From the NCBI RefSeq assembly GCF_900162665.1, contig NZ_LT727811.1, positions 1-37,763 on the forward strand: DNA of 37,763 nt, in the 5' to 3' direction. This DNA comes from Oceanobacillus sojae. GTDB taxonomy: Bacteria > Bacillota > Bacilli > Bacillales > Amphibacillaceae. A program made the position numbers and the translations under genes. Under the pieces are notes generated by a model that was given only the letters and a program-made list of their open reading frames with translations, did not search any database and was not told where the DNA came from. Positions 760-22,454 of the stretch are shown here, piece after piece. Every line of letters starts with the position of its first letter. Position 1 is the first letter of the stretch.

Positions 760-1092
760 TTAACTTCCTTGTGCTTTGGATCTGTTTGATGAGGCGAGGA
801 ATTTTTGTGTGATTTTTGCTTCTTTTAAAGTATTTTCTTCATCCTTGGATATTTTGTATTTTTTCCTTGTTGCTTCGCCTCCGCGTAAATGGCGGATTGC
901 TTTATGGTACTCGAGTATTTCTTTTACTTCCTGGGCCAGTTTAGGATTAATTTCGGGCAGCCTTTCTGTCAGATCTTTATGGACTGTACTTTTAGATACG
1001 CCGAACTCTTTTGCAATCGTCCGGACTGTTTTTCTTGTCTCTACAACATGCCTCCCTATTTTAATTGTCCTTTCTTTGATGTAATCATGCAC
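760..1092 (-). CDS. spoIIID: Stage III sporulation protein D, transcriptional regulator
   Basis: SpoIIID is the small DNA-binding regulator that acts in the mother cell after sigma-E, activating and repressing sigma-E genes and helping switch on sigma-K. The 110-residue product matches the family from MHDYIKERTIKIG onward. A helix-turn-helix lies at about residues 23-42 (RTIAKEFGVSKSTVHKDL), followed by the conserved stretch LPEINPKLAQEVKEILEYHK and a basic tail containing RHLRGGEATRKKYK. The tail is about 17 residues longer than in Bacillus subtilis (93 aa). The start is GTG (1092-1090), preceded by an AGGGGGG ribosome binding site; no ATG fits better. A terminator follows. In B. subtilis spoIIID lies next to mbl; here the repeat-rich window edge follows instead. 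Confidence 0.95.
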   Translation of the reverse strand: MHDYIKERTIKIGRHVVETRKTVRTIAKEFGVSKSTVHKDLTERLPEINPKLAQEVKEILEYHKAIRHLRGGEATRKKYKISKDEENTLKEAKITQKFLASSNRSKAQGS

Positions 1093-1138
1093 ACCGTTCG
1101 CCCCCCTAAGTTGTAATTCCGAGGTGTCGCTTGGACAG

Positions 1139-1169
1139 GGTGTATGTTTTGGGATAGGACTTATTGATA
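1139..1169 (-). promoter_or_regulatory. Candidate sigma-E promoter of spoIIID
   Basis: On the minus strand CATACACC (1146-1139) closely matches the sigma-E -10 consensus (CATACAnT). A weaker -35-like TATCAATA lies about 15 bases upstream (1169-1162). The predicted start is about 40 bases before the GTG codon. The -10 is convincing and the -35 is weak. spoIIID is sigma-E dependent in B. subtilis. Confidence 0.45.
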
Positions 1170-1618
1170 AGCGGCTGACTATTTTTTATGTAGTCATTAG
1201 AATATAAAAGAATAAAGGTTCCACTTAAGATGAATGGTATTTATAAATTACATGTCTTTTCACCTCAGACAATTCGATTGCATGGTTTGTAATATCATCA
1301 TATTAAAAAAATCGTTCCTTTATGCTTAAGTTTTGTACAAATAATCATGGGGACAAGGTGTATTTAAGAAAATCTTGAAACGGAAGTTCCATTTTTCTTA
1401 CTGTTATCATCCATAAAATGAAAACTTCATTCATTTATTTTTTCCAGTGAACAAATATTTCTTCTCTTCTTTGAATAATTGCAATTAAATTCATCAACGT
1501 TCATTTTTTTCTTTCTTCCTGACCTTTTTGTACCGGGAAATCAAAATAGTTAGCTCAAAGATTTAAAAGGTTATATGAATATTTAAGTTCAACTTATATA
1601 GTCAGATAATATTTAATA

Positions 1619-1647
1619 TTGACAATGATGTACGCATAATTTATCCT
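1619..1647 (+). promoter_or_regulatory. Candidate sigma-A promoter upstream of the BCCT cluster
   Basis: A perfect -35 (TTGACA, 1619-1624) is followed after exactly 17 bases by TATCCT (1642-1647), 4 of 6 matches to TATAAT. It reads toward the BCCT gene, with a long untranslated leader. The dyad at 1668-1686 would lie about 20-40 bases downstream of the start, a position suited to repression. Confidence 0.4.
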
Positions 1648-1667
1648 TTAATTAAATAACGGTATTG

Positions 1668-1686
1668 TATTCCTATTATCGGAATA
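1668..1686. promoter_or_regulatory. Dyad TATTCC-N7-GGAATA, possible operator
   Basis: Two perfect 6-base inverted arms are separated by 7 bases (1668-1673 and 1681-1686), just downstream of the candidate promoter. The last gene of the plus-strand cluster encodes an IclR-type regulator, and IclR proteins bind short palindromes, so this is a possible autoregulatory site. I did not find a second good copy upstream of the aldehyde dehydrogenase or iclR-type gene. Confidence 0.25.
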
Positions 1687-1971
1687 TAGATAAATTATCA
1701 ATATAAATTATTGTATTATTTATTGTTTCTATCTTTTTTGAAAACCCTTACATTTTTTTATGTTGATATCTTCTAACAATTAATTTCATAACTGACTGGA
1801 ATAGACTTCAAGTTTTATTCAGATCAAAAAGCAGCAATAACCGTTATTTTTTTAAAGACTGTCCGTCATTATTATTCGGAGCTTGTCTGTCTCTTACTGG
1901 TTCACTTGGCGCAAGGTTTTTTCCCTGTCACAGCTTAAATGGAATTATAAAAATAACGAGGAGGAATTCTA

Positions 1972-3543
1972 TTGAAGTACATGAAAGGAAGTACCCGAAC
2001 AATTGACTTACCTGTCTTTCTAATTAGCGGCGGTCTTTTATTAATCTTTGTCGTTGCCGGCCTTTTCAACCAGGCGTTTGTAACTGATATGGTAAATGCG
2101 TCTTTTGCATTCTCCGTAAAATACTTTGGTTCTGTGTATCAGTTTCTTATGCTCGGTACATTCGTTATTGCCCTTTTCTTAGGATTTTCCAAGTATGGAC
2201 GAATTCGATTAGGAAAATTGACTAAGCCGGAAATGAGCAACTTTAAATGGATTTCTATTATTATGTGTACTTTACTTGCAGGCGGAGGCGTATTTTGGGC
2301 AGCTGCTGAGCCATTAAGTCATTTTTTGAGTACCCCTCCTCAATTTGGGGATATTTCATCAGGATCTCAGGAGGCTGTGGGTCCGGCACTTGCTGCAAGC
2401 TTTGTCGACTGGGGATTCCTTGCTTGGGCCATTTTGGGAACGCTTGCCACCTTCGTACTGATGTATGCACACTATCATCGCGGAGCGCCGCTTAAGCCAA
2501 GGTCATTACTGTATCCTTTTTTTGGCGACAGAATTATGAAAAATAGTGCATTGGGTACGTTTGTTGATGTTTTTTCGATTGTAGCGGTTGCTGCCGGAAC
2601 CATTGGTCCTATCGGGTTTCTCGGCTTGCAGGCCGGATATGGATTAAATGCTTTGTTCGGATTACCGGATACGTTGATTGTTCAGGTTATTATTATCCTT
2701 TTGATTGTTATTGCTGCAGCAATTTCTGCTGCGTCTGGTATCCATCGGGGAATCCAAATTCTAAGCCGTTATAATGTCATTTTAGCACTGACCCTTGTTG
2801 CAGCTATGCTGATCCTTGGGCCCGGGTTATTCATCTTTGACTCTTTTCTGGAGTCCTTCGGTTTATACTTGCAGAACTTTGTCAGTATGAGCACATTTCG
2901 CAGCGATAGTGCATGGCTTAGCGGATGGACGGTTTTCTTTTTTGCCTGGTTCCTTGGATATGGACCCATGATGGCGATATTTGTCAGCCGTATCTCCCGC
3001 GGACGGACGATTAGGGAGATTGTCACAGCAGTTGCCGTTATTGCACCTGTCGTAACAGCATTTTGGTTTACTGTTGTAGGCGGTACGGGGATTTTCCAGG
3101 AAATTGCTAATCCCGGTTCTGTTTCCGAAGCGTTGAACAGTAATGGAGCTCCTGCCGCTATGATTGCCATTACGCAGCAATTGCCTTTAGGCACGATTTT
3201 AGGCTTTTTGTTTCTGCTGGCAACCATCATCTTTGTACTCACAACAACAGACTCTATGTCACTGACCATATCGATGGCCATTACCGGTACTGGTGAACCG
3301 CCGAAAGCGATGCGCGTATTCTGGGCATTACTGATGGGCGCGGTTGCTGCTGTTTTGTTAACAATTGGCGAGAGCAGTGTCAGTTCATTACAGTCCTTTA
3401 TTGTGGTAACAGCTGTCCCGGTTTCTATATTATTGCTGACAACCTTCTGGACGGCACCACTCGTTTGCAGAAAACTTGCTGAGGAACAGGGAATCACCCC
3501 GCCTAAGAAGGAAAGCATCTACGAGAATGAAGAAGCCGGTTAA
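1972..3543 (+). CDS. BCCT family (betaine/carnitine/choline-type) transporter
   Basis: A secondary transporter that should import a quaternary-ammonium or related zwitterionic compound with sodium or protons. The 523 residues form about twelve hydrophobic segments, the usual BCCT length. Family signatures are the GGGVFWAAAEPLSHF block (about 104-118), VDWGFLAWA (about 145-153), the cytoplasmic SRISRGRTIREIV loop and the TTTDSMS segment near the end. The start is TTG at 1972 with GAGGAGG 7 bases upstream; the in-frame ATG at 1981 is too far from that site. It heads a plus-strand cluster of six genes and is the likely entry route for the compound degraded by the rest. Osmoprotectant uptake alone is the alternative, but BCCT osmoporters are normally not followed by catabolic genes. 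Substrate cannot be read from the sequence. Confidence 0.92.
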   Translation: MKYMKGSTRTIDLPVFLISGGLLLIFVVAGLFNQAFVTDMVNASFAFSVKYFGSVYQFLMLGTFVIALFLGFSKYGRIRLGKLTKPEMSNFKWISIIMCTLLAGGGVFWAAAEPLSHFLSTPPQFGDISSGSQEAVGPALAASFVDWGFLAWAILGTLATFVLMYAHYHRGAPLKPRSLLYPFFGDRIMKNSALGTFVDVFSIVAVAAGTIGPIGFLGLQAGYGLNALFGLPDTLIVQVIIILLIVIAAAISAASGIHRGIQILSRYNVILALTLVAAMLILGPGLFIFDSFLESFGLYLQNFVSMSTFRSDSAWLSGWTVFFFAWFLGYGPMMAIFVSRISRGRTIREIVTAVAVIAPVVTAFWFTVVGGTGIFQEIANPGSVSEALNSNGAPAAMIAITQQLPLGTILGFLFLLATIIFVLTTTDSMSLTISMAITGTGEPPKAMRVFWALLMGAVAAVLLTIGESSVSSLQSFIVVTAVPVSILLLTTFWTAPLVCRKLAEEQGITPPKKESIYENEEAG

Positions 3544-3605
3544 GGAACTACCTGCTAAATATGCAGTTATTAAATAAATAATCTTAGTTTTTGGGGGTGT
3601 ACAGC

Positions 3606-5321
3606 TTGATAGAAGTAAAGCATGAAAATCATAAATTGCGTCCCGCTTCCGAAGTAATGAAACTGGAACGCATCGGTGCATTCCGCCTGACAAGCTTGAG
3701 TTTTCTGCGCATATTATTAAGACATATGATGCGGGAAAATTGGCAGGTTGATCGGACATTATTTGAATTAAATAAGGATGGACATGGCCATAGTGTATAT
3801 CGTATTCAAACACCAAGGCATACATTTTCCTTTGTAGTTGTCTCCACAGAAATAAAGGAAGATGAACGAAGCGACCGTGTTATTTCCCAAAAATGGGATG
3901 TCACCTTTGCATTAAGTGAAGGCATCGTCTCCACTGAAAAAATAGAAAGTTTAAAAAGAGAATTGCCTAAGCAGGAGGCAGGGCGCGGCGATGCGTTTGA
4001 CCTTGTCTGGTCACGCGCCAACAGAAGCAACCGGATTTTTGATTATGTTATTGACTGTCTTGCAGCACAAAAGCAGCCCGACCCAAAAGTTTTAAATGAG
4101 GTTGGTTATCTATTACGGACAACAGCCGTTTATGGCAACGGAAAATTCGGGCTTGCTCCTTATGAAAAAATTAAAGATAATCATCCCTTCAGCGGCCCCT
4201 TTCAGGCTCAGATGTTTGCGGTGTATATGCTGCGGCATTTCAGCTTTGATCTTGTGGAGCATATTGCCTTACAAAAAAATCCGGATGCCGTTCTGCTGGC
4301 TCCGGAAATAAAGCGTTTTATAGGTACCGGAAATGCAACTGGTCTGGGGATGGCCCCTTTTCTGATCGCGCATCCCAGATTGATTCACCAGTGGGTCTAT
4401 ATCAGAGAGAAAGCTATCGCCAGAGTAAAGGACATTCAACCGTCCCGGGATGATCTCGCACTGATGAGATATTGGCTGAATCGCACTGCAACCTATTTTG
4501 ATGATTCAAGACTGATCGACAGGGAGATCTTTTTCAAACCGGAAAAGCTGGCGGAACAATGCAGATTTCTAAATAAGATTGTTCTTGAATATTTAAAAAG
4601 CGGCACCTTAATGAAGCAGCCTACACAAGACATGTGGCATGATTTGTCTGTTCTTGCAGAGAGAACAGCCTCTATCGAGATGCAGGAGCTGCTGCACACG
4701 CTTTTACTTGAGCTGTATACGGATCATGTTATTGATTTGGAACGGAGGATGAACGTAGAAGAAACATACCAGATTGAACCGCGAATGAAAATCAGGGAAC
4801 TTATTGATTTAATCAAACAGCAGTATACCTGGGTATTTCAATATGATTTTACCAATCCGGATGAAAAATATTATTTTTGGTACCGTTCTGAAGAAAAAGA
4901 GGAACCGCGCATCGGAGTTCGTGACCAGGAACCCGGCAGTGACAAGGAGCTGCCGATGAATATAGCGGAAGAGGTGCAGGAGCTCTATCAAGCTTTAACA
5001 GCTGCTCATCCTGAGGAGATTGTTATATCTTTTATTTTGAAGTATCCGCACTATAAAGGTATCATACAGCGGATTCAATCCTTGGACGGTTTTGAATATG
5101 GAGAAGTGCAGGCCAATCTGTTAAGCAAGGATTTACTGCCTGTCAACCTGCTCCGATTCAAGTTATCTTTTTTTGGAGCTGAGCGCTTCAATCCAAAATC
5201 CAATCGCTGGGTGCGTATTACGTTATTTCAGGGAGCACCGCTTGTCGAAGAAATCGGGCAGCCTTTCCCTGATAATTGGGTATTTCCACAATTACCGACA
5301 TGGAAAGGAGATCAACCATGA
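3606..5321 (+). CDS. Conserved hypothetical protein, 571 aa, unknown function
   Basis: I do not recognise a characterised family. The predicted protein is soluble, with no signal peptide or membrane segment. Striking stretches are a basic amphipathic start (residues 19-47), RANRSNRIFDYVI (138-150), LLRTTAVYGNGKFG (169-182), GPFQAQMFAVYMLRHFSF (197-214) and a glycine-rich GTGNATGLGMAPFLIAHP (240-257). These look like conserved core motifs, and I recall similar uncharacterised proteins in proteobacteria, which is memory and not a search. The C-terminal third is charged and more variable. The start chosen is TTG 3606, six bases after GGGGGTG; TTG 3591 is possible but lies upstream of that site. 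The stop overlaps the next start as ATGA, so it is translationally coupled to the M19-like gene. Context suggests an enzyme or enzyme subunit acting on the BCCT substrate. Confidence 0.75.
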   Translation: MIEVKHENHKLRPASEVMKLERIGAFRLTSLSFLRILLRHMMRENWQVDRTLFELNKDGHGHSVYRIQTPRHTFSFVVVSTEIKEDERSDRVISQKWDVTFALSEGIVSTEKIESLKRELPKQEAGRGDAFDLVWSRANRSNRIFDYVIDCLAAQKQPDPKVLNEVGYLLRTTAVYGNGKFGLAPYEKIKDNHPFSGPFQAQMFAVYMLRHFSFDLVEHIALQKNPDAVLLAPEIKRFIGTGNATGLGMAPFLIAHPRLIHQWVYIREKAIARVKDIQPSRDDLALMRYWLNRTATYFDDSRLIDREIFFKPEKLAEQCRFLNKIVLEYLKSGTLMKQPTQDMWHDLSVLAERTASIEMQELLHTLLLELYTDHVIDLERRMNVEETYQIEPRMKIRELIDLIKQQYTWVFQYDFTNPDEKYYFWYRSEEKEEPRIGVRDQEPGSDKELPMNIAEEVQELYQALTAAHPEEIVISFILKYPHYKGIIQRIQSLDGFEYGEVQANLLSKDLLPVNLLRFKLSFFGAERFNPKSNRWVRITLFQGAPLVEEIGQPFPDNWVFPQLPTWKGDQP

Positions 5322-6313
5322 TACAACAAAACGAGATTGTCATTGATGCTTTAGAGTTAAGCAGCTGGGACAGAGAATTTGTGCATCTTTTAAAAAAAGG
5401 TGGTGTCACCTGTGTTCACGCGTGCTGCGGATTATGGGAAAATGCCCGGGAAACACTTCGTAAAATCGGCGAATGGCACCGGTTCTTTCATGAAAATGAT
5501 GACCTGGTCATGCAGGTATTTCAGGGCAGTGATATTTTAAAGGCAAAACAGGCAGGAAAAATAGGTGTTATTCTGGGCACACAAAATACCTCTTCTCTGG
5601 AGGATGAGCTTTCTCTTGTCTCTGTTTTTAACCAGCTCGGTATTAAAGTGATGCAGCTGACCTATAATAACCAGAATTTAGTCGGGAGCAGCTGTTATGA
5701 AGAGAAAGACAGCGGTCTTTCCCGCTTCGGCAAATTAGTTATTCAGGAAATGAACCGGGTGGGAATGATTGTGGATCTTTCACATGTTGGTGAACAGACT
5801 TCTCTTGACGCGATAGCTGTATCAGAGCGGCCGGTGGCAATCACACATGCAAACCCGAGCTGGATTTATCCAACAAAACGCAACAAGTCTGCAGAGGTGC
5901 TTCAGGCTTTAAAAGAGAATGGCGGTGTACTTGGGGTCTGCGCCTATCCGCATCTTGTGAATGGAAAGAATACAACACTGGAGGAATTTTGCAGTATGAT
6001 TATCCAAACGGTTGATTTTATGGGGATTGATCAGGTTGGCCTCGGCACCGATTTAACATTAAACATGTCTACAGACTTTCTGCACTGGATGCGGATGGGC
6101 AGATGGACACATGATATGGACTATGGAGCCGGTTCAAAGGAAAATCCGTCATGGCCGGAGTGGCCATCATGGTTTCAGACTCCGAAGGACTTTCCGAATA
6201 TTGCAGAAGGGCTCATTCAACAGGGAATGTCCGGCGAGGATGCAGCAAAGGTAATGGGCGGCAACTGGTTACGTTTCTTTACGGAGGGCTTTAAAGAGGA
6301 TGGTCAAAAATAA
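5318..6313 (+). CDS. Atypical membrane dipeptidase (peptidase M19)-like protein
   Basis: A 331-residue TIM-barrel hydrolase-like protein of the renal dipeptidase (M19) family. The start is ATG 5318, overlapping the previous stop by four bases and preceded by AAAGGAG; upstream in-frame codons lie inside the previous gene. The family core is clear: VDLSHVGEQT (H156), AITHANPS (H177), KRNKS (R188) and GLGTDL (D245), ending in MGGNWLRFF. The normal zinc ligands in the first half are absent: the HxD motif is replaced by DALEL at 10-14 and the bridging glutamate by Gln89 (GTQN). It is therefore unlikely to be an ordinary binuclear dipeptidase. It may be a mononuclear hydrolase or deaminase-like enzyme acting on the imported compound. 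I recall M19-like genes of this kind near dimethylglycine/betaine catabolism genes in pseudomonads, which is unverified. Confidence 0.88.
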   Translation: MIQQNEIVIDALELSSWDREFVHLLKKGGVTCVHACCGLWENARETLRKIGEWHRFFHENDDLVMQVFQGSDILKAKQAGKIGVILGTQNTSSLEDELSLVSVFNQLGIKVMQLTYNNQNLVGSSCYEEKDSGLSRFGKLVIQEMNRVGMIVDLSHVGEQTSLDAIAVSERPVAITHANPSWIYPTKRNKSAEVLQALKENGGVLGVCAYPHLVNGKNTTLEEFCSMIIQTVDFMGIDQVGLGTDLTLNMSTDFLHWMRMGRWTHDMDYGAGSKENPSWPEWPSWFQTPKDFPNIAEGLIQQGMSGEDAAKVMGGNWLRFFTEGFKEDGQK

Positions 6314-6328
6314 AAAGGAGGCGGAGAA

Positions 6329-7099
6329 ATGCGCGTATCCTATGTAGAGCTGTTTATTCACTGTAAAAAGGTCTTCCGTGCATGCGGCATTCCTTACGGG
6401 TGCGCAGATGATGGTGCCGGAGTGGTTACATGGAGTGAATTCATCGGTTTAAATGGTATGCAGGTATTGCTGAAGGAAATTCCCAATATAAAATCACAGA
6501 GTATGAAAAATGTTCATCTCCTGCAAGAGGAAAATGGTTTATACCGTTTTGATGGAGAAGCACAAAGCGCTATTATTCTGGGCAAGCTGATGGCAGACTT
6601 TGCTTTAGGAATGTCTGAAACAAAAAATACAGTACGGGTTCATATGCAAAATACGACCCATTCCCGGCTCCTGGCACAGCCGGCCCATTATATCGCTTCC
6701 AGAGATAAAGGATGTCTGGTTAATTATAAAACAAGTCAGGGCGTTCCAATATGGATTCTTTCTACACCGGAAATTGCCTACCCATTATTTGCGGAAGGAG
6801 ATGCCGCAGAGCAAATCATGGAACAAAATCTTACCGCAGAGCTTGGACAATATGAAACGGCCAATATGACTAGCGATGAGTTTTGGCTTGTTTGTACCTC
6901 GGAAACAAAATTGATCACTTCCTGTGTAAGAAAACTGAGGCAGGCAGCTGGAAATGGAGCGATCAAACTGACAGAATCTGTGCATTTAAAGGCTACCTTT
7001 GAAAAGGCGTACTTGTACGGGGCCGAAATTGATATGAAATGCTGGAATGAACTTGATCAAATTGGACGGGAAACACTTGTTGAAGCTATGGAGGAATGA
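6329..7099 (+). CDS. DUF3726-like protein of unknown function
   Basis: 256 residues with no signal peptide or membrane segment. The first 45 residues (VSYVELFIHCKKVFRACG, then IPYGCADDGAGVVTWSEF) resemble the N-terminus I associate with DUF3726 proteins, in which an amphipathic helix is followed by a GxxxGxADDxGxxxxW-like pattern. This assignment is from memory and moderately secure. The remainder has no motif I can tie to a reaction. It begins 15 bases after the M19-like gene with AAGGAGG in front of the ATG, so it belongs to the same transcript. Constant company with the M19-like and 571-residue proteins would suggest an accessory or second subunit of one enzyme system. Confidence 0.7.
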   Translation: MRVSYVELFIHCKKVFRACGIPYGCADDGAGVVTWSEFIGLNGMQVLLKEIPNIKSQSMKNVHLLQEENGLYRFDGEAQSAIILGKLMADFALGMSETKNTVRVHMQNTTHSRLLAQPAHYIASRDKGCLVNYKTSQGVPIWILSTPEIAYPLFAEGDAAEQIMEQNLTAELGQYETANMTSDEFWLVCTSETKLITSCVRKLRQAAGNGAIKLTESVHLKATFEKAYLYGAEIDMKCWNELDQIGRETLVEAMEE

Positions 7100-7167
7100 T
7101 GAATATGTAATACAAACATGTTCTTAATAAACGTTATCAATAGATTAGAAATATTTAAGGAGGTATT

Positions 7168-8637
7168 ATGATGGCAGCGACAACAACTGTATCATTAAAA
7201 AACTTTATCAATGGAAAATGGGTATCCCCTTCAGGAGACGAATTAAGAGAAGGAGTGAATCCTGCTGACACAAGGGAAATTGTTTCATCCTATAATCAAT
7301 CGACCCCAGAAGACGTAAAAGCAGCTATTGATTCTGCCGGGCAGGCATTTCAATCCTGGAGACACACACCGGCCCCGCAGCGTGAACAATACTTATATAA
7401 CATTGCTGCGTTAATGGAGAATGACAAAGAGGAGCTTGCCCGGACAATTGTTATGGAAGAGGGTAAAACATTTCAGGATGCAATAAAAGAGGTCGGTTAT
7501 GCAGCAGGTATTATCCGCTTTTACGCCGGTGAATGCCGCCGTCTGAAAGGAACCATCATGGAAGCAGATATACCGGATGTTCAAATTGAAACAAAGCCGG
7601 AGCCTCTAGGTGTCGTCCTGGTAGTAACTCCCTGGAATTTCCCGCTTTCTATTCCGGCATGGAAGACTGCACCAGCCATCGCCAGCGGCAATACAGTTGT
7701 ATTAAAGGCCTCTTCACAGACACCGTTAACTGTCATGAAGTTTATGGAAATTGTTGAGAAGGCTGGTGTTCCTGCAGGTGTCATCAATCATGTCATCGCT
7801 CCCGGCAGATTTGTCTCTGAAATGATCCAGCATAAAGCAGTAAAGGCTGTGACCTTTACCGGATCTAATTCTTCCGGGAAAAAGGTTTATGCAGAGGCTG
7901 CCAAAGATATGAAACGCTGTTTACTTGAAATGGGAGGAAAAAATCCGCTTATTGTCATGGAAGATGCGGATATAGATGAGGCAGTGCAGATTGCTGCTGC
8001 GGGCGCCTATGGGCAAACCGGGCAGGCTTGTACAGCTACAGGACGGGTAATTGTCCATCAAGCAATTGCTGAGGCGTTCACAGATAAGCTTGTTGCAAAG
8101 ACAAAAGAGCTTCGCATCGGAAATGGCATGGAAGAAGGCATTGACATCGGTCCACAGGTAAGTGCGTCCGAACAGTCCTCTACCCTCGCACTGATTCAAA
8201 GTGCAGTGGAGGAAGGCGCCACTGTACTTACCGGAGGGAAAATCCCGGAAGGTCCGGAATTTGAGCACGGCTATTTTGTAGAACCTACCGTCATTCGAAA
8301 TGTGACCCCGTCTATGCGAATTTTTCAGGAGGAGGTTTTTGGTCCGGTCAATTGCATTACTGAGGTCAGAGGTATTGATGAGGCTATTGCTGCCGCTAAT
8401 GATGTAGATTATGGACTTTCATCAGCCATCTGCACCAAAAACCTGGAATATATGAATAAGGCGTTAAATGAGATTGAAGCAGGAATTGTTAAAGTGAATA
8501 TGACAACCACAGGTACATTTTATCAAGCTCCTTTTGGAGGCTATAAGCAATCGAGCACCGGAACCTTTAAAGAATTGGGCAGTGAAGCAATGGATTTCTA
8601 CTGCCAGTACAAAACAAGGTATATTAAAAGCAAATAA
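7168..8637 (+). CDS. NAD(P)-dependent aldehyde dehydrogenase, semialdehyde type
   Basis: Oxidises an aldehyde, probably a semialdehyde, to the acid with NAD(P)+. All catalytic parts are present in the 489 residues: oxyanion Asn157 (TPWNFP), cofactor Lys180, the TGSNSSG loop (231-237), general base Glu254 (LEMGGKN) and nucleophile Cys288 (GQACTATGR). The sequence resembles the 2-oxoglutarate semialdehyde / succinate semialdehyde dehydrogenase branch, such as B. subtilis YcbD, more than betaine aldehyde dehydrogenases. Two tandem ATG codons occur; the second (7171) is better spaced from AAGGAGG (7157-7163). It lies 68 bases after the DUF3726-like gene and probably performs the late oxidation step of the pathway. 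The substrate is not determinable from sequence. Confidence 0.93.
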   Translation: MMAATTTVSLKNFINGKWVSPSGDELREGVNPADTREIVSSYNQSTPEDVKAAIDSAGQAFQSWRHTPAPQREQYLYNIAALMENDKEELARTIVMEEGKTFQDAIKEVGYAAGIIRFYAGECRRLKGTIMEADIPDVQIETKPEPLGVVLVVTPWNFPLSIPAWKTAPAIASGNTVVLKASSQTPLTVMKFMEIVEKAGVPAGVINHVIAPGRFVSEMIQHKAVKAVTFTGSNSSGKKVYAEAAKDMKRCLLEMGGKNPLIVMEDADIDEAVQIAAAGAYGQTGQACTATGRVIVHQAIAEAFTDKLVAKTKELRIGNGMEEGIDIGPQVSASEQSSTLALIQSAVEEGATVLTGGKIPEGPEFEHGYFVEPTVIRNVTPSMRIFQEEVFGPVNCITEVRGIDEAIAAANDVDYGLSSAICTKNLEYMNKALNEIEAGIVKVNMTTTGTFYQAPFGGYKQSSTGTFKELGSEAMDFYCQYKTRYIKSK

Positions 8638-8700
8638 TCGACAGAGTAATATGATATAATAATTCGAAAAGTATGTTATCGATTCAATCTGGAGGTTCCT

Positions 8701-9438
8701 ATGAAAACAAAGTCAGACGTATCTGCAACTGTATTGCGGGCAATTAAAGTATTAGAACATCTGAAGGAAACACCGGGACCGCAAAGTGTCAGTTATATAA
8801 GCAAAGATTTAGAGATTTCCCAAACTATTGTTCATCGTTTGTTAACCACTTTAAAAATGGAAGGATTTGTACTGCAGGATACACATTCCAAACTGTATTC
8901 ACTCGGTCCGGCTTTTTTAGACTATGCAAATAAGATCATAACGGAGCTGCCTTTTGCACCAGTTGTAGAGCCCTGGCTGATCCGGCTGCGAAATCAGACA
9001 GGGGAAACAGCTGGATTCTATATACCGAATGGATACACGCGGCTATGTGTTATGGAATATGAAAGTCAGCAGGAAATCAGAAGGTCTGTAGGTGTCGGCA
9101 ATCAGTATCCTATCCATGCCGGTGCTACAGGCCGGGCAATTCTGTCCTATCAATCCGAAGAGATTCTTCAAAGTGTACTGTACAGTTTATCCCGGGAAGA
9201 GCGCGATATTTTAACTAAGAAAATAGAAACTACAAGAGAGCAGGGTTATGCAGTCAGCTTTGAGGAAATCAACGCAAATGTTTCGGCATTGTCTGCTCCG
9301 GTTTTTGATCAAAACCAGCGTGTTGTAGGAGCATTATCGATTTCAGGTCCGATTTTCCGCTTTAATAGCGAAATGATAGAGAAGCATATTCCGGCATTAG
9401 TTCATGCAACACAGGAAATTTCTAAATCATTTGTGTAA
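8701..9438 (+). CDS. IclR family transcriptional regulator
   Basis: 245 residues with the two IclR parts: an N-terminal winged helix-turn-helix (about 5-68; VSYISKDLEISQTIVHRLLT holds the recognition helix) and a C-terminal effector-binding GAF-like domain (about 80-245). The latter has the typical GATGRAILSY and GALSISGP segments. Such proteins usually control a nearby catabolic operon and respond to a pathway metabolite. It is the last gene of the plus-strand cluster, 63 bases after the dehydrogenase, with CTGGAGG before the ATG, so it is likely the local regulator. A TATAAT hexamer at about 8655-8660 lacks a good -35, so a separate promoter is uncertain. A terminator at 9579-9604 is the first plus-strand stop signal downstream. 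Confidence 0.93.
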   Translation: MKTKSDVSATVLRAIKVLEHLKETPGPQSVSYISKDLEISQTIVHRLLTTLKMEGFVLQDTHSKLYSLGPAFLDYANKIITELPFAPVVEPWLIRLRNQTGETAGFYIPNGYTRLCVMEYESQQEIRRSVGVGNQYPIHAGATGRAILSYQSEEILQSVLYSLSREERDILTKKIETTREQGYAVSFEEINANVSALSAPVFDQNQRVVGALSISGPIFRFNSEMIEKHIPALVHATQEISKSFV

Positions 9439-9501
9439 CGGAAATGCTTTATTAAAGAATAAGAAAAGAATCATTTCTTCTACATCCATTGGTAAATATA
9501 A

Positions 9502-9530
9502 TTGATAATTACCTAATGTTTGCGTATACT
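9502..9530 (+). promoter_or_regulatory. Strong sigma-A-like promoter with no gene downstream
   Basis: TTGATA (9502-9507), exactly 17 bases, then TATACT (9525-9530). Both boxes match consensus at 5 of 6 positions. The only plus-strand feature before the next terminator (9579-9604) is about 50 bases of AT-rich sequence, so the predicted transcript is roughly 68 nt. Confidence 0.45.
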
Positions 9531-9536
9531 GGAATC

Positions 9537-9604
9537 TTGTTATTTTTTTACTTGTCCTAAATTAATAATACACAAGAGCAGACCCTTTGTGGTCTGTTTT
9601 TTTG
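9537..9604 (+). ncRNA. Candidate small RNA between the IclR gene and spoIIQ
   Basis: Inferred only from a promoter-terminator pair: start near 9537, end at the T-run of the 9579-9604 hairpin. It has no ORF of useful length. It resembles no RNA family I recognise. It could equally be an unused promoter upstream of the cluster terminator. Confidence 0.25.
9579..9604 (+). terminator. Terminator of the plus-strand cluster
   Basis: CAGACC (9579-9584), loop CTTTGT, GGTCTG (9591-9596), then eight T. It is a compact rho-independent terminator reading rightward. Confidence 0.8.
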
Positions 9605-9609
9605 TGCAC

Positions 9610-9661
9610 AAAAAAACTGTTGCACGATCAGTTTCCTGATTGTGCAACAGCCTCTTTTTTT
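9610..9661. terminator. Bidirectional terminator, spoIIQ / cluster
   Basis: A 15-bp stem (CTGTTGCAC... at 9617-9631 against 9636-9650) with a short loop has one mismatch. It is flanked by A7 on the left and T8 on the right, so it works for spoIIQ on the minus strand and as a second stop for the convergent plus-strand cluster. Confidence 0.88.
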
Positions 9662-9683
9662 GGTTTTCCCAAGCAATATTCTT

Positions 9684-10559
9684 TTATTCTTCGGACTCGT
9701 CCAATTCTACGTCGATTTCTTCATCCGCTTCTTCGTCAGTTCCTTCGTCTTCACTTGGTGCTTCTTCCTGTTCTGTATCTTCTACGTTTTCTGCATCTTC
9801 TTCAGGATTTACAACATCTTCTCCTGAAGTTGGTTCATCACTTACTGCTTCATCTTCCGCAGCGCTATCTTCTACAGCAATGCTGGATGCCGGCTGATCA
9901 AAATAGCTTTCCGGGTTTACTTCTTTACCGTCTTTACGGATTTCAAAATGCAAGTGTGTTCCATTATCTTTACCAAACAAGTTTTTGCCTGCTGTTCCCA
10001 GCTTATCACCTTGTGCAACTTGGTCACTTACAGAAACTGCTACATCTCCAAGACTAGCATAATACGTTTTTAAGTCTTCACCATGAGATACCACAACTAC
10101 ATTACCCAGTAATGGATCTTCCTTCACTTCTTCTACTGTTCCGCTGATAGATGCTAAGACATCAAAAGTTTCTGCGTCTGCTGCTGCAATGTCTACTCCT
10201 GTACTTTGATAGTAACGATTGTTGTAAAGTACAAGTGCATTTTCTCTGTCGGCCTGCTCTGCGTTGTAATCAAAAAATTTAGTTACGATTTCTGCTTCAT
10301 CTGCGTTTTCCAGCGGCATTCCTACCAATTCCTGCTGATCCACTACCGGTACTGCATCTTCATCATTCATTGATGGAAGATAGTGATCCTCTGCATTCCT
10401 TTGGTCATCTTGCTCTGAAACATCAGTTCCTGCATTTTGATACCAAATGACTGACGCTAATAAAACAGCTGCAATACTTAAATACAATGCTGGGAAAAAC
10501 CATTTCTTACGGAAAATTTGGCTCCATTTATTTTTTGGGCCTTTGAATTCCTCTTTCAT
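9684..10559 (-). CDS. spoIIQ: Stage II sporulation protein Q, LytM/M23-type
   Basis: SpoIIQ is the forespore half of the SpoIIQ-SpoIIIAH channel/zipper across the engulfment septum. The 291-residue product has a short cytosolic N-terminus, one membrane segment (about 20-39), an acidic linker and a LytM (M23) domain (about 105-220). The zinc motif is degenerate: the first ligand histidine is replaced by Ser119 in the SxGVD motif (119-123) while HLH (202-204) is kept. As I remember it B. subtilis SpoIIQ has the same loss, so it is probably structural and not a hydrolase. The last 60 or so residues form a strongly acidic tail. The start is ATG at 10559, correctly spaced from GAGGTG; a longer reading frame to 10637 has no ribosome site. 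A terminator follows. Confidence 0.93.
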   Translation of the reverse strand: MKEEFKGPKNKWSQIFRKKWFFPALYLSIAAVLLASVIWYQNAGTDVSEQDDQRNAEDHYLPSMNDEDAVPVVDQQELVGMPLENADEAEIVTKFFDYNAEQADRENALVLYNNRYYQSTGVDIAAADAETFDVLASISGTVEEVKEDPLLGNVVVVSHGEDLKTYYASLGDVAVSVSDQVAQGDKLGTAGKNLFGKDNGTHLHFEIRKDGKEVNPESYFDQPASSIAVEDSAAEDEAVSDEPTSGEDVVNPEEDAENVEDTEQEEAPSEDEGTDEEADEEIDVELDESEE

Positions 10560-11021
10560 TTTCATCACCTCTGCAACCATTGTGAGCAGAAAAAGAGAAT
10601 TATATACATAACTATGAAAAAAATTTTTGATTTTCATAATAAATAGATTAAATAAAGGTTCTGGATAAGTTGAAATTTAGATTTTACCTTCTAGCATTCG
10701 CTCCGGAAAAACACTACGCTTTCCATGGGCTTGAGCTCAGCCTCCTCAAAAAAAGAAGTTCACTTTTTTTCTGCGGAGGCATACAGGATGTATGTCAGTT
10801 CGGTGTTGCGACAGGACGTCGCGAACTTAACCGAACTTCCTTCCGTTTTGCGCTTTCCCATAGGAGTCTCCGTGTTTTTCCTTCGCTGGTAATAGCGCTT
10901 AAACATGAAAAAACGATGTATTATGTCAGGAACAAAAGAAAGATTTATTATTTCAATTTATATAGTAGAAACGAAACACTTTCACCTTTGCAATAAAAGT
11001 AGTTTAGCCCATTTAGACAAT
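10560..11021. other. Intergenic region spoIID / spoIIQ
   Basis: About 460 bases. Most of it (10693-10887) is a large palindromic element; the rest is AT-rich. spoIIQ is sigma-F dependent in B. subtilis, but I could not pick out a convincing sigma-F promoter upstream of it. Confidence 0.5.
10693..10887 (+). repeat. Palindromic intergenic element, copy E3 with extra hairpin
   Basis: Outer arms GGAAAAACAC (10705-10714) and complement (10872-10881). Inside are GCCTCC/GGAGGC (10740-10745, 10775-10780) and AGTTCGGT/ACCGAACT (10797-10804, 10830-10837), the last enclosing a further near-palindrome TTGCGAC...GTCGCGAA. It shares CGCTCCGG, CGCTTTCC, CCCATAGGAGTC and a terminal CGCT with the other copies. 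It is longer than the others because of the extra internal hairpin. Confidence 0.8.
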
Positions 11022-11053
11022 AAAAAACCCCCGCTCAGTTAGAAACGAGGGTT
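11022..11053 (-). terminator. Terminator overlapping the end of spoIID
   Basis: On the minus strand AACCCTCG (11053-11046) pairs with CGGGGGTT (11033-11026) with one G-T pair, followed by a T-run. The left arm lies within the last codons of spoIID, before its TGA stop. Confidence 0.75.
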
Positions 11054-12252
11054 GGTGCGATTTCACTTACCTGGCTAATTTCCACATCTGTATAGTAGTA
11101 GTGAATAATGTCTTCATAATTTTTTCCTTCTGCCGCCATGCCATTTGCGCCATATTGGCTCATGCCGACGCCGTGCCCATAGCCCTGTGTCGTAAAAATC
11201 AGATGATTATCACTTTGTTCAATAGTAAAGTCACTGGATCTCAAGCCCAATTTATCACGAAATTCCGGTCCTGTAAAAGTATTTCCGGCAACTGTTATTT
11301 CTTTTACTCTGCCACTGTCTGTATGGCTGATTTCCATTGGGATTTTCTTATCATCCTGAAGCGGCACTTGCAATGCCTCAGACACCTCTGCGACACTCAG
11401 CGTTGTCTGACTGGTGAACTCTGGTGCATTCTTATCCCAGGGACTCTCTACGCTGCGCAGATAGGCAACCTCGCTCTCCCAATAATCCTCAGAGTTTTCC
11501 GTATACCCATTACTTGTGGAGAAGAAGGAAGCTGTAATCGGTGCCTTATTATACGTTATGATTTGTCCTTCTGTTTCTTTCACTGCCTGATTTATTTTAT
11601 TCATTTTTTCCTGATATTCCGCTCCCCATTGCTCCTGCAGCTCCTGTTCCCCTTTATATACCTGATGCTGTGTTGAATCAGTCAAATCATAGCTGCTATT
11701 CTTCTCTCCATTCAGCAGAAAGTTGACAGTAAATGTTCTCGCAGCAACTGCCTGGGCTTTTAATGCTTCCATTTCAAACTCTGTCGGCATCTCGGAAGAA
11801 ACCACCCCGGCAACATATTGCTCTACTGGAACATTCTCCACTTTCTCGTTGCTCACCCGCATGACAGAGACATCAAATGGAGATGCTCCGACTTCCACTG
11901 CTTCTTCGCCCGCTGCTGTTTCTTCAGAGGTATCCTCTGTTCCTTCTTCTTTATCAGGATTTTCTTCTTCTGTATCCACCACTTCTACACCTGTACTAAT
12001 TGGATTATCGGTTTTTGTGATCTGGACAATAATTGCAGGGACTGCCAGAATAAAAATGATCAGTACTGCAAAAACACCTAATATCATTTGCTTCCAAGGA
12101 GATGGGCGCTGATGATTATAATACGTTGATTTCCGGTTAGAAAAAGGTACGATTTTCTGTGTCGGCTGGTTCGGTATCCTTTTTTTCTGCTGCAGCTGCT
12201 TCATTTTCTTATGAATTGCTGTGTTTTTCTGTTTATACTTTTTGTTATGCAC
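11035..12252 (-). CDS. spoIID: Stage II sporulation protein D, peptidoglycan lytic enzyme
   Basis: SpoIID is the membrane-anchored lytic transglycosylase that, with SpoIIM and SpoIIP, thins the septal wall and drives engulfment. The 405 residues contain a basic cytosolic N-terminus of about 52 residues, one membrane segment (55-77), an acidic linker (92-120) and the SpoIID domain. SEMP carries the presumed catalytic Glu154, followed by EALKAQAVAARTF and, near the C-terminus, GYGHGVGMSQYGA. The N-terminal extension makes it about 60 residues longer than the B. subtilis protein (343 aa as I recall). The start is GTG (12252-12250) behind GGAGGAGG. The stop codon sits inside the terminator hairpin. 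Confidence 0.94.
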   Translation of the reverse strand: MHNKKYKQKNTAIHKKMKQLQQKKRIPNQPTQKIVPFSNRKSTYYNHQRPSPWKQMILGVFAVLIIFILAVPAIIVQITKTDNPISTGVEVVDTEEENPDKEEGTEDTSEETAAGEEAVEVGASPFDVSVMRVSNEKVENVPVEQYVAGVVSSEMPTEFEMEALKAQAVAARTFTVNFLLNGEKNSSYDLTDSTQHQVYKGEQELQEQWGAEYQEKMNKINQAVKETEGQIITYNKAPITASFFSTSNGYTENSEDYWESEVAYLRSVESPWDKNAPEFTSQTTLSVAEVSEALQVPLQDDKKIPMEISHTDSGRVKEITVAGNTFTGPEFRDKLGLRSSDFTIEQSDNHLIFTTQGYGHGVGMSQYGANGMAAEGKNYEDIIHYYYTDVEISQVSEIAPTLVSN

Positions 12253-12320
12253 GTTCCTCCTCCTTTTCTAAAACTTTCTGAACATCCTCTTAAGCTGTTT
12301 ATCTATCATGCCTACTATTA

Positions 12321-12350
12321 AATCTATACATTTTATTGGCAAAATAGACC
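12321..12350 (-). promoter_or_regulatory. Possible sigma-E promoter of spoIID
   Basis: On the minus strand GGTCTATTTT (12350-12341) and TGTATAGATT (12330-12321) loosely match the sigma-E -35 and -10 boxes. spoIID is sigma-E controlled in B. subtilis. The match is weak. Confidence 0.25.
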
Positions 12351-12416
12351 TTTTTCTTATGATAAAGTTAGAGAAAAAATTTTCAGAGTGTACATAACAG
12401 TTCAAAATATACAGTA

Positions 12417-12469
12417 ATAAAAAAACCATAGAAGTCTCTTTTAGCCGTTCAAAGAGCATTCTACGGTTC
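12417..12469 (-). terminator. Terminator of the dpp-ykf operon
   Basis: On the minus strand AACCGTAGAA...CTCTTT pairs with AAAGAG...TCTATGGTT across 12469-12424, with small internal loops, followed by seven T. It lies just after the ykfD stop codon. Confidence 0.85.
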
Positions 12470-12476
12470 TTTATAT

Positions 12477-13508
12477 TTATGCCTGAATTTCTTCTTCTTC
12501 CATTTCTTTCGTCCGCTGCGGCCCGGTCGGCGGGCTATCCTTATAATTCTGATCATACAGATGGCAGGCAACGCGGTGACCTGACTTTATTTCCTGCCAT
12601 ACCGGCTTCACATCCTTGCATATATCCATTGCCATCGGGCATCTTGTCCGGAATACACACCCTGAAGGCGGATTGATAGGGCTTGGCAATTCCCCTTCTA
12701 AAATAATCCGTTCTCTCTCTTCTTCTATATCCGGGTCTGGAATTGGAATGGCTGATAGAAGCGCTTTTGTATATGGATGCAATGGATTTTCATAGAGATC
12801 CTCGCCATCTGTCTCCTCTACCAGATTTCCTAAATACATCACGCCAATCCGGTCTGAGAATTGCTTCACCATCGACAAGTCATGCGCAATAAATAAGAAG
12901 GTCAGCCCTTTTTCCCGCTGCAGCCGCTTCATCAGATTCACTACCTGCGCCTGCACGGAAACATCTAATGCAGAAATCGGCTCATCGGCAATAATAAAGT
13001 CCGGGTTCAGTGCCAGCGCTCTAGCAATCCCGATTCGCTGACGTTGTCCGCCGCTGAATTCGTGCGGGTAACGGTTCACATGGTCCCTGCTCAGTCCAAC
13101 CTCCTCCAGCAGTTCATATACACGGTTCATGAGATCTTTTTTCTTCTTAAAAATTCCGTGTACCTCCAGAGGCTCAGAGATGATTTCCCTGATGGTAGAC
13201 CGGGGATTCAACGAAGCATACGGATCCTGAAAAATCATCTGCATTTTCCGGTAAAGCGCGAATTGTTCCTTTTCGCTTAATCCATGTACATTTTCATAAT
13301 TAAACCAGACATCTCCGCTTGTTTTCTCATATAATCCGAGAATTGTCCGGCCGATGGTAGATTTCCCGCAGCCGGATTCACCAACCAGACCATAGGTTTC
13401 CCCTTTAAAAATATGAAAGGATACATCATTGACGGCTTTTAAAATATCTGCCTTTCCCACATCAAAGTATTTCACAAGGTTTTTTACTTCCAGTATTTTA
13501 TCTTCCAT
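12477..13508 (-). CDS. ykfD: Peptide ABC transporter ATPase, YkfD/DppF type
   Basis: One of the two nucleotide-binding subunits powering the Dpp peptide permease. The 343 residues carry Walker A GESGCGKS (about 43-50), the signature FSGGQRQR, Walker B FIIADEP and the C-terminal Opp/Dpp extension with the Cys-rich [15 protein letters not shown] block plus one further Cys. That Cys pattern binds an iron-sulfur cluster in some structurally studied homologues. The start is ATG 13508 with GGAGGTG in front; the much longer reading frame overlapping ykfC has no ribosome site. It is the last gene of the operon, as ykfD is in B. subtilis. It probably pairs with DppD, which is encoded five genes upstream. 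Confidence 0.92.
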
Positions 13509-13512
13509 CTCT

Positions 13513-14448
13513 TCACCTCCAGTACCTTCTCGCTGCGCATAGCTCCCTTTCGTACTTGGTTCCTTGTAAAGGAGTGATTTCAATCCCTTTTCCTGTTTGC
13601 GGTGAATGCAGCATTTCTCCATTTCCTTTATAGATGCCGACATGATGGATTGCTCCTTTTCCATCCTGATGAGCAAAGAAGAGCAGATCTCCCGGCTTGA
13701 TCGCATCAAAAGCAATCTCTTCACCTGCATCTGCCTGATCTCCCGCATCACGGGCAATCCAATAGCCGTTTGCTTTATGCGCTGCATAGGCGAGCCCTGA
13801 ACAATCATAGCCAAAGGAGCTCATGCCGCCCCAGAAATAATCAAGACCGGTAAAGGGAAGACCGGCAGCCACAATATCTGCGCCGCTGCCAGGCTCTATG
13901 CCAACTTCATTCGTAACAGTTATTGTTTTTTCTTTAGCAATCTGCTGCTTTCCTGTCGGCGTCTGTACATACACATGCGTATCGTTCTCCCCTAAGTAAG
14001 GCAAAATGGTTAAATAACTCAGCTGCATCCTTGTTTGTCCGTCTGAGTCTTCCAGCCAGGCATCCTTTGCGGTAACGACGCTATATTTATCCTGGAGCCA
14101 GCTTTCTTTATTCACACGTGTCAATTGACGGATTGGTATATATCCCGGATAGCCTCCCGCATCTTTTTTGGACGGCTGAAATGGAGCGATAACATGTGCC
14201 CATTCTCCTTCTTCCTCCAGAACTATGACAGGCTCGCCGTACAATGTCTGCGACTGCACCAGATTGTCATTACACAGAGCCAAACCCTGCTCATAGGTTA
14301 AGCTGTTCACCCATTTAAGTATATCTGTCGGGCTTGAGACTCCATATTCATCCTCCGCTCTGGCTGACTCTGGATTAGTCCAGATTGTTGCAACCTGCAC
14401 ATTCGTCACATGAAACATTTCCGGGAGCTTCTCAAACATCTCTTTCAT
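13513..14448 (-). CDS. ykfC: NlpC/P60 gamma-D-glutamyl-L-diamino acid endopeptidase
   Basis: Cleaves the D-Glu-diaminopimelate bond of short murein peptides, releasing L-Ala-D-Glu. The 311-residue product has SH3-like N-terminal regions (about 55-180) and a C-terminal NlpC/P60 domain (about 190-311). The predicted triad is Cys216 (DCSG), His269 (HHVG) and His281 (LHSP). YFWGG (204-208) is the usual substrate-binding motif. I see no signal peptide, so it should act in the cytosol on imported peptides. The start is ATG 14448, one base after the ykfB stop; its AAAGGAG site lies within the end of ykfB, so the two are coupled. Its product is the substrate of the YkfB epimerase encoded upstream. 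Confidence 0.93.
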
Positions 14449-14449
14449 T

Positions 14450-15571
14450 CTACCAGCTCCTTTCATTTTTGATTGGTTCCAAATAAGCTTCCTTCACAGC
14501 TTTTATTCCAAGTCCCGGCTGATCAGGAAAAGTAATTTGATTTCCTTTTCCTTCGTAATGAATACCACCTTCTAAAATATCATCTGACAGCATCAGCGGG
14601 GCATCAAAGTCAAAGCGTGTGACTGCCGGGTGACTGGCTGCAAAATGAGCGGCAGCTGTAATTCCCAGCTTGGTCTCTATCATGCTCCCTGCCATACAGG
14701 AAACCCCATAAGCTTCACAAAGGTTTGCAATTTTTATCGCCTGATGGATCCCTCCAGCCTTCATCAGCTTAATATTAATCAGATCCGCAGCCCCCATTTC
14801 CAGGACACGTCGTGCATCGTGTACAGAAAATACTGCTTCATCCGCCATAATTGGTGTTGTCGTATGACTGGTAATATATTTAAGCCCTTGAATGTCATGG
14901 GCAGGAACAGGCTGTTCTACCAATTCAATATTTAAGCCCAGCTCTTCCATCTTTGTAATAGATTTAACTGCTTCTTTCGCAGTCCAGCCCTGGTTTGCAT
15001 CCAACCGGATCAGAACGTCCTCTCCTGCCGCTTTCCGGACAGCAGCTACCCGTTCAATATCTTTTTCTGCCGAGTCTTTGCCTACTTTTACCTTTAAAAT
15101 GTCAAAGCCATTTTCTTTATATAATTTTGCGTCCTTCTGCATTTGATCAATCTCATTCACGCTGACGGTGTAATCATTTTGGATAGTGGAGCTCGAGCCT
15201 CCCAAATATTGATATAAAGGCTGATTTGCTGCTTGTGCGAGACAATCATATAATGCCATATCCACAGCGGCCTTGGCACTGCTATTATGAACAATCGCCT
15301 TCTCCAGCTGCATAAAAATATGCGCATAGGATGATAGCTCTGCATCCTTTAAAATTGGACGGATGACCTGATCAATCGTGTAATGGATACTTGCCAGACT
15401 ATCGCCTGTAATCACATGCGTCGGCGGAGCTTCTCCCCAGCCGATGCTGCCATTATCGCAGGTTATTTTCACAAAAATACTTTCTGCAACAGTTACCGTC
15501 CGCAGTGCTGTTTTAAAAGGTGTATGTAAAGGGATCGAGCTATGATAAAGTCCTAAATCAATTATCTTCAC
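14450..15571 (-). CDS. ykfB: L-Ala-D/L-Glu epimerase, enolase superfamily
   Basis: Epimerises L-Ala-D-Glu to L-Ala-L-Glu so that murein dipeptides can be hydrolysed and used. The 373 residues keep the muconate-lactonising-enzyme layout. The catalytic lysine pair K160-V-K162 is present on one side and Lys268 on the other. Metal ligands are Asp191 (LDANQGW), Glu219 (VEQP) and Asp244 (ADEA). These match the B. subtilis epimerase numbering closely. The start is GTG at 15571 behind AAAGGGGC. It sits between ykfA and ykfC in the order known from B. subtilis, which supports the specific name over a general dipeptide epimerase. Confidence 0.93.
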   Translation of the reverse strand: MKIIDLGLYHSSIPLHTPFKTALRTVTVAESIFVKITCDNGSIGWGEAPPTHVITGDSLASIHYTIDQVIRPILKDAELSSYAHIFMQLEKAIVHNSSAKAAVDMALYDCLAQAANQPLYQYLGGSSSTIQNDYTVSVNEIDQMQKDAKLYKENGFDILKVKVGKDSAEKDIERVAAVRKAAGEDVLIRLDANQGWTAKEAVKSITKMEELGLNIELVEQPVPAHDIQGLKYITSHTTTPIMADEAVFSVHDARRVLEMGAADLINIKLMKAGGIHQAIKIANLCEAYGVSCMAGSMIETKLGITAAAHFAASHPAVTRFDFDAPLMLSDDILEGGIHYEGKGNQITFPDQPGLGIKAVKEAYLEPIKNERSW

Positions 15572-15604
15572 GATTAACGCCCCTTTCTAAGTATTTGACA
15601 TTCC

Positions 15605-16519
15605 TTAACGTACTCCCGGCGAAAGCTGAAGCGTCTTCGTCCTGCTGGATAAAGTTGCTTTTACTCCTAAAGGAATAGAGAAATGCGGAAAGCAGTGACC
15701 GATTCGGAAACCGGCAATAACCGGCTTTCTATAATTTCTAAAGTAATGCTTCCAGACTTCTTCCAATCTTAAACTTGGATGTACTTTAGGGTCTGCTTCT
15801 GCAAAATCACCGATAATTATCCCGGCAGCCTGCTGCAGCTTCCCGGTCAAACGAAGCTGATTCATCATCGCATCAATCCGATAAGGCTCCTCGCCAACAT
15901 CTTCTATGAATAACAGTTTATCCTTTGTACAAATTTCATAAGGAGTGCCCAGCGTTTGTACAAGCAGTGACAGATTTCCTCCGACAATTTTCCCTGAGGC
16001 TTCTCCTTCCCGATAGACAGTAAGCGGAGAAATACTCTCTGAATAAATGAGGTTAGTCGGTCCAAACAGCTGCCTGAATAATTGGCTGGAAAGTGTATCA
16101 AAGTCTTTTTTCACCATATCCGATGCCGGCATCGGACCATGAAAAGTAATTAAGCCGGTCGCTTGGCGGATGGCTGTATGTAAAAATGTAATATCACTGT
16201 ATCCCCAGATAATTTTAGGATTTTTTTTGATTAATTCCATATCTATTTTATCAATGATGCGACCTGTTCCATAGCCGCCCCTGGCGCAAATAATTGCCTT
16301 CACATTCCGGTCAGCAACCATTTGATGAAAATCCGCTAAACGGCTAGCATCCCTTCCTGCTAAATATCCGTATTGATCATATACATGTTCTCCAAGCTTT
16401 ATTTTTAAGTCCATATTTTCAAAAAAGGAGAATGATTTTTCCAGTTTTTCTTTTTCTACAGGACCAGCCGGAGCGATAATTCCGATGGTATCTCCAAATT
16501 TTAAACGATAAGAAAGCAA
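15605..16519 (-). CDS. ykfA: LD-carboxypeptidase, peptidase S66 (murein tetrapeptide)
   Basis: Removes the terminal D-alanine from murein tetrapeptides. The 304-residue protein has the S66 triad: Ser108 (GYSD), Glu206 (FIEDVGE) and His275 (RIGHCF), plus the ARGGYGTGR loop (79-87). No signal peptide is visible, so it is cytosolic and acts on imported peptides. The start is TTG (16519-16517), seven bases after AAAGGGGGA; there is no competing ATG. It is preceded by a perfect hairpin after dppE that may lower its expression relative to the binding protein. Confidence 0.92.
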   Translation of the reverse strand: MLSYRLKFGDTIGIIAPAGPVEKEKLEKSFSFFENMDLKIKLGEHVYDQYGYLAGRDASRLADFHQMVADRNVKAIICARGGYGTGRIIDKIDMELIKKNPKIIWGYSDITFLHTAIRQATGLITFHGPMPASDMVKKDFDTLSSQLFRQLFGPTNLIYSESISPLTVYREGEASGKIVGGNLSLLVQTLGTPYEICTKDKLLFIEDVGEEPYRIDAMMNQLRLTGKLQQAAGIIIGDFAEADPKVHPSLRLEEVWKHYFRNYRKPVIAGFRIGHCFPHFSIPLGVKATLSSRTKTLQLSPGVR

Positions 16520-16570
16520 GTATGTATCCCCCTTTTTTGAGAAATAAAAGAGTATATTTCTTTAAAATAG

Positions 16571-16615
16571 AGATAGGCTCAAGTGAGACCTGAATGTCGG
16601 TACATGAGCCTATCT
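16571..16615 (-). promoter_or_regulatory. Intercistronic hairpin between dppE and ykfA
   Basis: AGATAGGCTCA (16571-16581) pairs perfectly with TGAGCCTATCT (16605-16615) around a 23-base loop. On the minus strand no strong T-run follows, so it is more likely an mRNA stabiliser or partial terminator that raises dppE over the ykf genes than a full terminator. Confidence 0.6.
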
Positions 16616-16622
16616 GCTTTTT

Positions 16623-18305: not shown

Positions 18306-18320
18306 TGTTTTGCCCCCTTT

Positions 18321-19325: not shown

Positions 19326-19334
19326 GTTGTCCAC

Positions 19335-20291: not shown

Positions 20292-20293
20292 CT

Positions 20294-21596: not shown

Positions 21597-21603
21597 ACAC
21601 ACT

Positions 21604-22428: not shown

Positions 22429-22454
22429 TTTCATCATCCAATCAAAATATTAGT

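Follow-up and report, generated by a model that had tools for sequence, protein, structure and literature searches.

Six genes follow one another on the plus strand at positions 1972–9438 of the window, by which we mean the whole 37 763-nucleotide stretch of Oceanobacillus sojae DNA that was analyzed. The first encodes a BCCT-family transporter (1972–3543, with a TTG start; PF02028, 506 bits), followed by a 571-residue protein of an unnamed family, here called HP (3606–5321, also with a TTG start), which gave no Pfam match over the cut-off. Thereafter come an M19-like amidohydrolase (5318–6313; PF01244, Peptidase_M19), a DUF3726 protein (6329–7099; 26.1 bits at a cut-off of 22.1), an aldehyde dehydrogenase (7168–8637; PF00171, Aldedh, 550 bits) and an IclR-family regulator (8701–9438; PF01614, IclR_C, 106 bits, and PF09339), the last holding the same position in 11 further loci of Bacillota. 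The gaps between the six genes are, in order, 62, −4, 15, 68 and 63 bases, with an ATGA junction forming the 4-base overlap of the HP and M19-like genes, and both this overlap and the positions of all six genes were, as judged by open reading frames and Pfam, those given by the first-pass annotation. An intrinsic-terminator-like hairpin on the plus strand (9617–9650; 15 pairs and a T-run), located about 180 bases past the IclR stop codon, was the strongest of 11 terminator-like sites found at 1000–9700, where shuffling gave an expectation of 7.9. Promoter-like sites were not more common than in shuffled sequences (17 found, 20.5 expected).

HP likewise gave no match to NCBIfam, and it represents a large and well conserved family standing outside both collections, as at least 7,990 of 8,000 scored candidates in a database search were relatives at E ≤ 0.001 and no Pfam domain was found among the 120 relatives listed. 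The closest named relative among the matches listed was that of Oceanobacillus timonensis, at 87% identity. The AlphaFold model of HP was confident (pLDDT 92.1, pTM 0.92), the predicted fold matched nothing in the PDB or among viral folds at E ≤ 0.001, and no oxygenase, flavin or metal site was recognized in the protein. The DUF3726 protein has the predicted fold, in shortened form, of the type-2 malate/lactate dehydrogenases (Ldh_2), a family that includes the Δ1-piperideine-2-carboxylate reductase 1wtj. In Ldh_2 dehydrogenases a Ser-His-Gly motif carries the catalytic His, but this motif was missing from all 80 DUF3726 sequences. Among the 120 relatives listed for one fused protein, 64 were fusions of HP with DUF3726, and DUF3726 is likely a partner subunit of HP.

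The M19-like protein matched its profile with 256 bits (cut-off 26) from profile position 40 onwards, leaving positions 1–39 unmatched. These first 39 positions hold the metal motif of the family, and the two-metal site of an active dipeptidase consists of DxHxD together with a bridging Glu. The M19-like protein does not carry that set, having a Gln aligned to the Glu of the dipeptidase 5lx0, while its H156, H177 and D245 were invariant in all nine members of a family alignment. The closest solved structure was 2i5g (243 bits), a named amidohydrolase that is presumably PA5396 of P. aeruginosa and that has the same IDxL...W start; because 2i5g is altered in the same manner, we regard the changed N-terminus as a subfamily trait. 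The loss of metal ligands pointed out in the first-pass annotation is hence real, as seen by both profile and alignment, but it is not unique to this protein. What does separate the M19-like gene from the 2i5g subfamily is its partners, which are HP and DUF3726 and not dgcAB. For the aldehyde dehydrogenase, the nearest NCBIfam models were those for 2,5-dioxovalerate and alpha-ketoglutaric semialdehyde dehydrogenases, with scores of 558 and 525 bits falling below the respective cut-offs of 750 and 770, so that the semialdehyde dehydrogenases of C5 keto acids are its nearest relatives by models that are both below cut-off.

A W-W-x-x-W box has a role in BCCT carriers of trimethylammonium compounds. 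The transporter of the window, despite its clear profile match, does not have that box but instead W-F-L-G-Y, as found upon alignment to solved BCCT structures. All 70 related BCCT rows above 400 bits (two of the rows being one gene) had the W-F-x-x-Y form, among them further BCCT genes from the same genome as the window (L002, and a single gene appearing as both L003 and L004). Since those other carriers have it too, the box is characteristic of a BCCT subfamily and is not confined to this pathway. The BCCT gene adjoining one Rhodobacterales cluster (L097) was of the W-W type.

The conservation of the cluster was assessed in 80 named loci, taken as the best 80 of at least 578 candidates encoding an HP relative and thus top-scoring rather than randomly drawn, which spanned Bacillota, Alpha-, Beta- and Gammaproteobacteria, Campylobacterota and Chloroflexota. 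For 57 of these the sequence reached beyond 6.5 kb on the upstream side of HP and beyond 4 kb on the downstream side, and in this subset profile annotation within 6.5 kb found DUF3726 near HP in 56, with the 57th (L091) being a fusion, together with M19 in 53, ALDH in 49, LysR in 48 and BCCT in 45. An additional sample of 20 alphaproteobacterial loci, one from each of 20 of the 39 HP-bearing genomes in the class of R. arenilitoris (the Ruegeria class) and mostly the better-scoring ones, had DUF3726 adjoining HP in every case and M19 close by in 18 (absent from L148 and L153). The order HP–M19–DUF3726–ALDH–IclR was kept in all 12 Bacillota loci, the window included, and a RidA-like gene followed the cluster in seven of them; one further Bacilli hit (G407) stands outside this count. 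In the Ruegeria class 39 of 289 genomes carried HP, as did 12 of 274 in the Halomonas class and 7 of 398 in that of the window, with centre genomes counted; in the genus of R. arenilitoris it was present in 52 of 54. The proposal that the three odd genes, HP, DUF3726 and M19, might travel together was borne out across phyla: far from co-occurring rarely they were neighbors in most of the loci examined, as given by plain counts made without a formal null model.

We also combined 55 named, 18 alphaproteobacterial, 5 Bacilli and 10 hand-picked plasmid loci into a set of 88 with full context, 29 of 117 having been excluded for short context. Within 6.5 kb of HP, M19 was found in 82 and ALDH in 69 of the 88, with 11 of the 19 loci missing ALDH being among the 18 alphaproteobacterial ones. 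RidA was present in 46 (alone in 44) and Ldh_2 in 22 (alone in 20), both occurring in two loci and neither in 22, and the window cluster has neither of them and IclR in place of LysR. On a FastTree phylogeny of 117 HP proteins these states were clumped, with at least three changes, so the mutual exclusion of RidA and Ldh_2 partly reflects ancestry. In one locus (L073) an Ldh_2-like protein without the Ser-His-Gly motif occupied the slot of RidA. Matches to SoxA- and SoxB-like proteins, which are relatives of N-methylglutamate dehydrogenase, were found within 6.5 kb in six of the 88 loci, using models that cannot tell sarcosine oxidase and N-methylglutamate dehydrogenase apart; annotated sarcosine-oxidase-like (SoxBDAG-like) genes stood beside L007, L009, L097 and L099, and none were found among the window proteins scanned.

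Some loci differed in their composition. Clusters of Shinella and Aminobacter had an OpuA-type betaine ABC transporter, and L006 had a branched-chain-type ABC transporter instead of BCCT. On a 1.41-Mb contig, in a stretch of 36% GC, locus L144 (2537–11921) had an OpuA-type betaine ABC transporter, ALDH, M19, HP and DUF3726 in a row, followed by a TPR gene on the opposite strand and then a GcvT-like protein. R. arenilitoris had two HP copies, one in the order LysR–ALDH–M19–HP–DUF3726–Ldh_2 (L076) and one as LysR–HP–DUF3726 with no M19 in the 12.7-kb stretch covered (L137). On pSymB of S. meliloti (L093, 8142–12393) there was a distant IclR–HP–DUF3726-like–M19 set followed by an ABC transporter, an aminotransferase and ALDH, which may make up a sister pathway acting on a different compound.

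The six genes belong to a catabolic cluster that is real and widely conserved and has an unexplained protein at its core. It can soundly be inferred that HP, DUF3726 and the M19-like protein would do the first chemistry on an imported compound, leaving an aldehyde, and the best reading is that HP with DUF3726 forms the predicted catalytic core, which would be the first to act on a ring compound carrying an N-methyl group. Our preferred reading, to which we give about even credence, is that the conserved cluster is a likely betaine-type catabolic operon, most likely for homarine, where HP and DUF3726, as a predicted complex, would open or activate the ring before the aldehyde dehydrogenase and the M19-like enzyme act. 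It is based on the genes present, their synteny and natural fusions and the motifs that have been lost, with the folds as predicted and all steps of the route as deduced. The BCCT carrier would import homarine, an N-methylated pyridine, whereupon HP and its DUF3726 partner would open the ring between C5 and C6 to give an N-formyl-N-methyl amino aldehyde, which the aldehyde dehydrogenase would convert to the acid. The M19-like amidohydrolase would then take off the formyl group, yielding 2-(methylimino)glutarate. Imines or enamines can be substrates of both RidA and Ldh_2 enzymes, and because one or the other recurs near HP, an imine intermediate is suggested; this could be hydrolyzed to 2-oxoglutarate and methylamine, with RidA in many related clusters, or alternatively be reduced to N-methylglutamate by the Ldh_2 of other clusters, for a sarcosine-oxidase-like N-methylglutamate dehydrogenase to produce glutamate. 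Control of the operon would fall to the IclR protein.

A known precedent is the trigonelline pathway of Acinetobacter baylyi (TgnABCDE), where ring cleavage gives a formamide aldehyde that is then handled by an aldehyde dehydrogenase and a hydrolase. The route proposed for the window would, by analogy, follow the same logic, but Pfam recognized no pair of flavin monooxygenases in the six-gene cluster and HP has no recognized relation to TgnA or TgnB. A more far-reaching idea, which we consider possible though rather unlikely, is that HP and DUF3726 constitute a new enzyme class with a fold absent from solved structures, opening an N-methylpyridinium ring without recognized oxygenase, flavoprotein or CoA chemistry and using a dead dehydrogenase as partner subunit. 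Should HP initiate the breakdown of homarine, or of a similar ring betaine, a widespread marine nitrogen compound would be handled by new chemistry.

A 2026 study on a conserved homarine pathway reportedly describes, according to its abstract, an operon named homABCDER that yields N-methylglutamate and glutamate, and is said to comprise five structural genes and a LysR regulator in Rhodobacterales, SAR11 and SAR116. Our Rhodobacterales loci L096, L097 and L099 have LysR, ALDH, M19, HP, DUF3726, Ldh_2 and BCCT, and the name homABCDER presumably fits these five genes plus LysR, with BCCT, as an agreement in number and not a comparison of gene-set identity. Compared to the hom operon as so described, the window has IclR and BCCT and is without Ldh_2. 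A literature search for homABCDER gave no match, and no search result tied homarine, or any other substrate, to the genes of the cluster. Excerpts of published work linked Mgd (N-methylglutamate dehydrogenase) to the catabolism of homarine (PMC13390433, with reference to a 2026 paper in Nature Microbiology), noted fast homarine drawdown by Ruegeria pomeroyi (PMC12817926) and listed homarine among compounds without a confirmed transporter in that organism (PMC9723723), with the excerpt of a further paper (PMC9038784) adding nothing on genes. Homarine is proposed as the likeliest substrate because of the betaine carriers, the recurring RidA or Ldh_2, the Sox-like genes, the link to Mgd, the use of homarine by R. 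pomeroyi, the presence of HP in nearly all genomes of the genus of R. arenilitoris and the nearness of the ALDH to semialdehyde dehydrogenases of C5 keto acids. Weighing against it are the lack of RidA and Ldh_2 in the window cluster and its IclR in place of LysR, the loci missing ALDH, the clumping of RidA and Ldh_2 on the HP tree, the motif loss in the Ldh_2-like protein of L073, the W-W-type BCCT at L097, the different transporter of L006 and the failure to recognize an oxygenase, flavin or metal site in HP. The first-pass annotation had presented the cluster as a possibly undescribed catabolic pathway; its catabolic nature is now strongly supported, but "undescribed" is doubtful, as the marine version may already have been published in the 2026 homarine paper and the pathway would then be known. 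The chemistry of HP and the working of the Gram-positive form with IclR and BCCT are predictions, and the Bacillota version offers a compact system for laboratory tests.

An operon of the same kind could instead serve a different betaine or N-methylated heterocycle, for which trigonelline, proline betaine, pipecolate betaine and some other N-methyl amino acid are candidates, with HP, DUF3726 and M19 being a general module tuned to each substrate. We find this a serious alternative, albeit less probable than homarine, considering the pSymB triad of S. meliloti with its IclR gene, solute-binding-protein ABC transporter, class-III aminotransferase and ALDH, the further loci with other transporters, the soil-type Pseudomonas, Brevibacillus and Paraburkholderia among the hosts and the two HP copies of R. 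arenilitoris. The distant rhizobial copies are, however, only about 28–34% identical to the Phaeobacter HP and were not among the proteins placed on the HP tree, so that they have little bearing on the substrate in the window.

Ordinary breakdown of glycine betaine or dimethylglycine, with the M19-like gene as a pepD-type companion of dgcAB loci, appears improbable. It would agree with 2i5g being the closest solved M19 relative, with the sarcosine-oxidase-like genes near some loci and with the pepD and hypothetical genes upstream of dgcAB in Vibrio and Pseudomonas, but HP and DUF3726 are not named for that set in the excerpt describing it (PMC12093977). Moreover, the BCCT box is unlike that of the solved trimethylammonium carriers, and a Rieske oxygenase, DgcA/B and Etf were all missing from the 25 window proteins scanned with Pfam, a set without those at 9684–13814 except for 13513–14466.

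Within the window's genus HP occurred in 2 of 28 genomes, the window's own counted. At 1092–9684 of the window the cluster lies between spoIIID and an M23-type peptidase gene, which are 8.6 kb apart. Of the 26 genomes of the genus that lack HP, 9 were compared in the spoIIID region, and there the distance from spoIIID to the M23-type gene, which was named by eye and not by Pfam, was about 0.4–0.6 kb in five and 1.7–2.0 kb in four. Since the two genes lie close together in relatives without HP, the cluster is an insert of patchy distribution within a region of sporulation genes. The nearest relative (G002, locus L157) had the cluster at the same spot with no BCCT match there, and BCCT took several positions in other loci, as if BCCT and IclR were chance neighbors and the genes not one functional unit, but this is very improbable, with BCCT–HP–M19–DUF3726–ALDH–IclR intact in L158 and the five genes from HP to IclR kept in order throughout the Bacillota loci. 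Farther along the window, at 12477–22437 on the minus strand, NlpC/P60, MR/MLE-type, S66 and M55 peptidase-type genes follow one another together with an oligopeptide ABC transporter, in a group that resembles a gene set for cell-wall peptide recycling.
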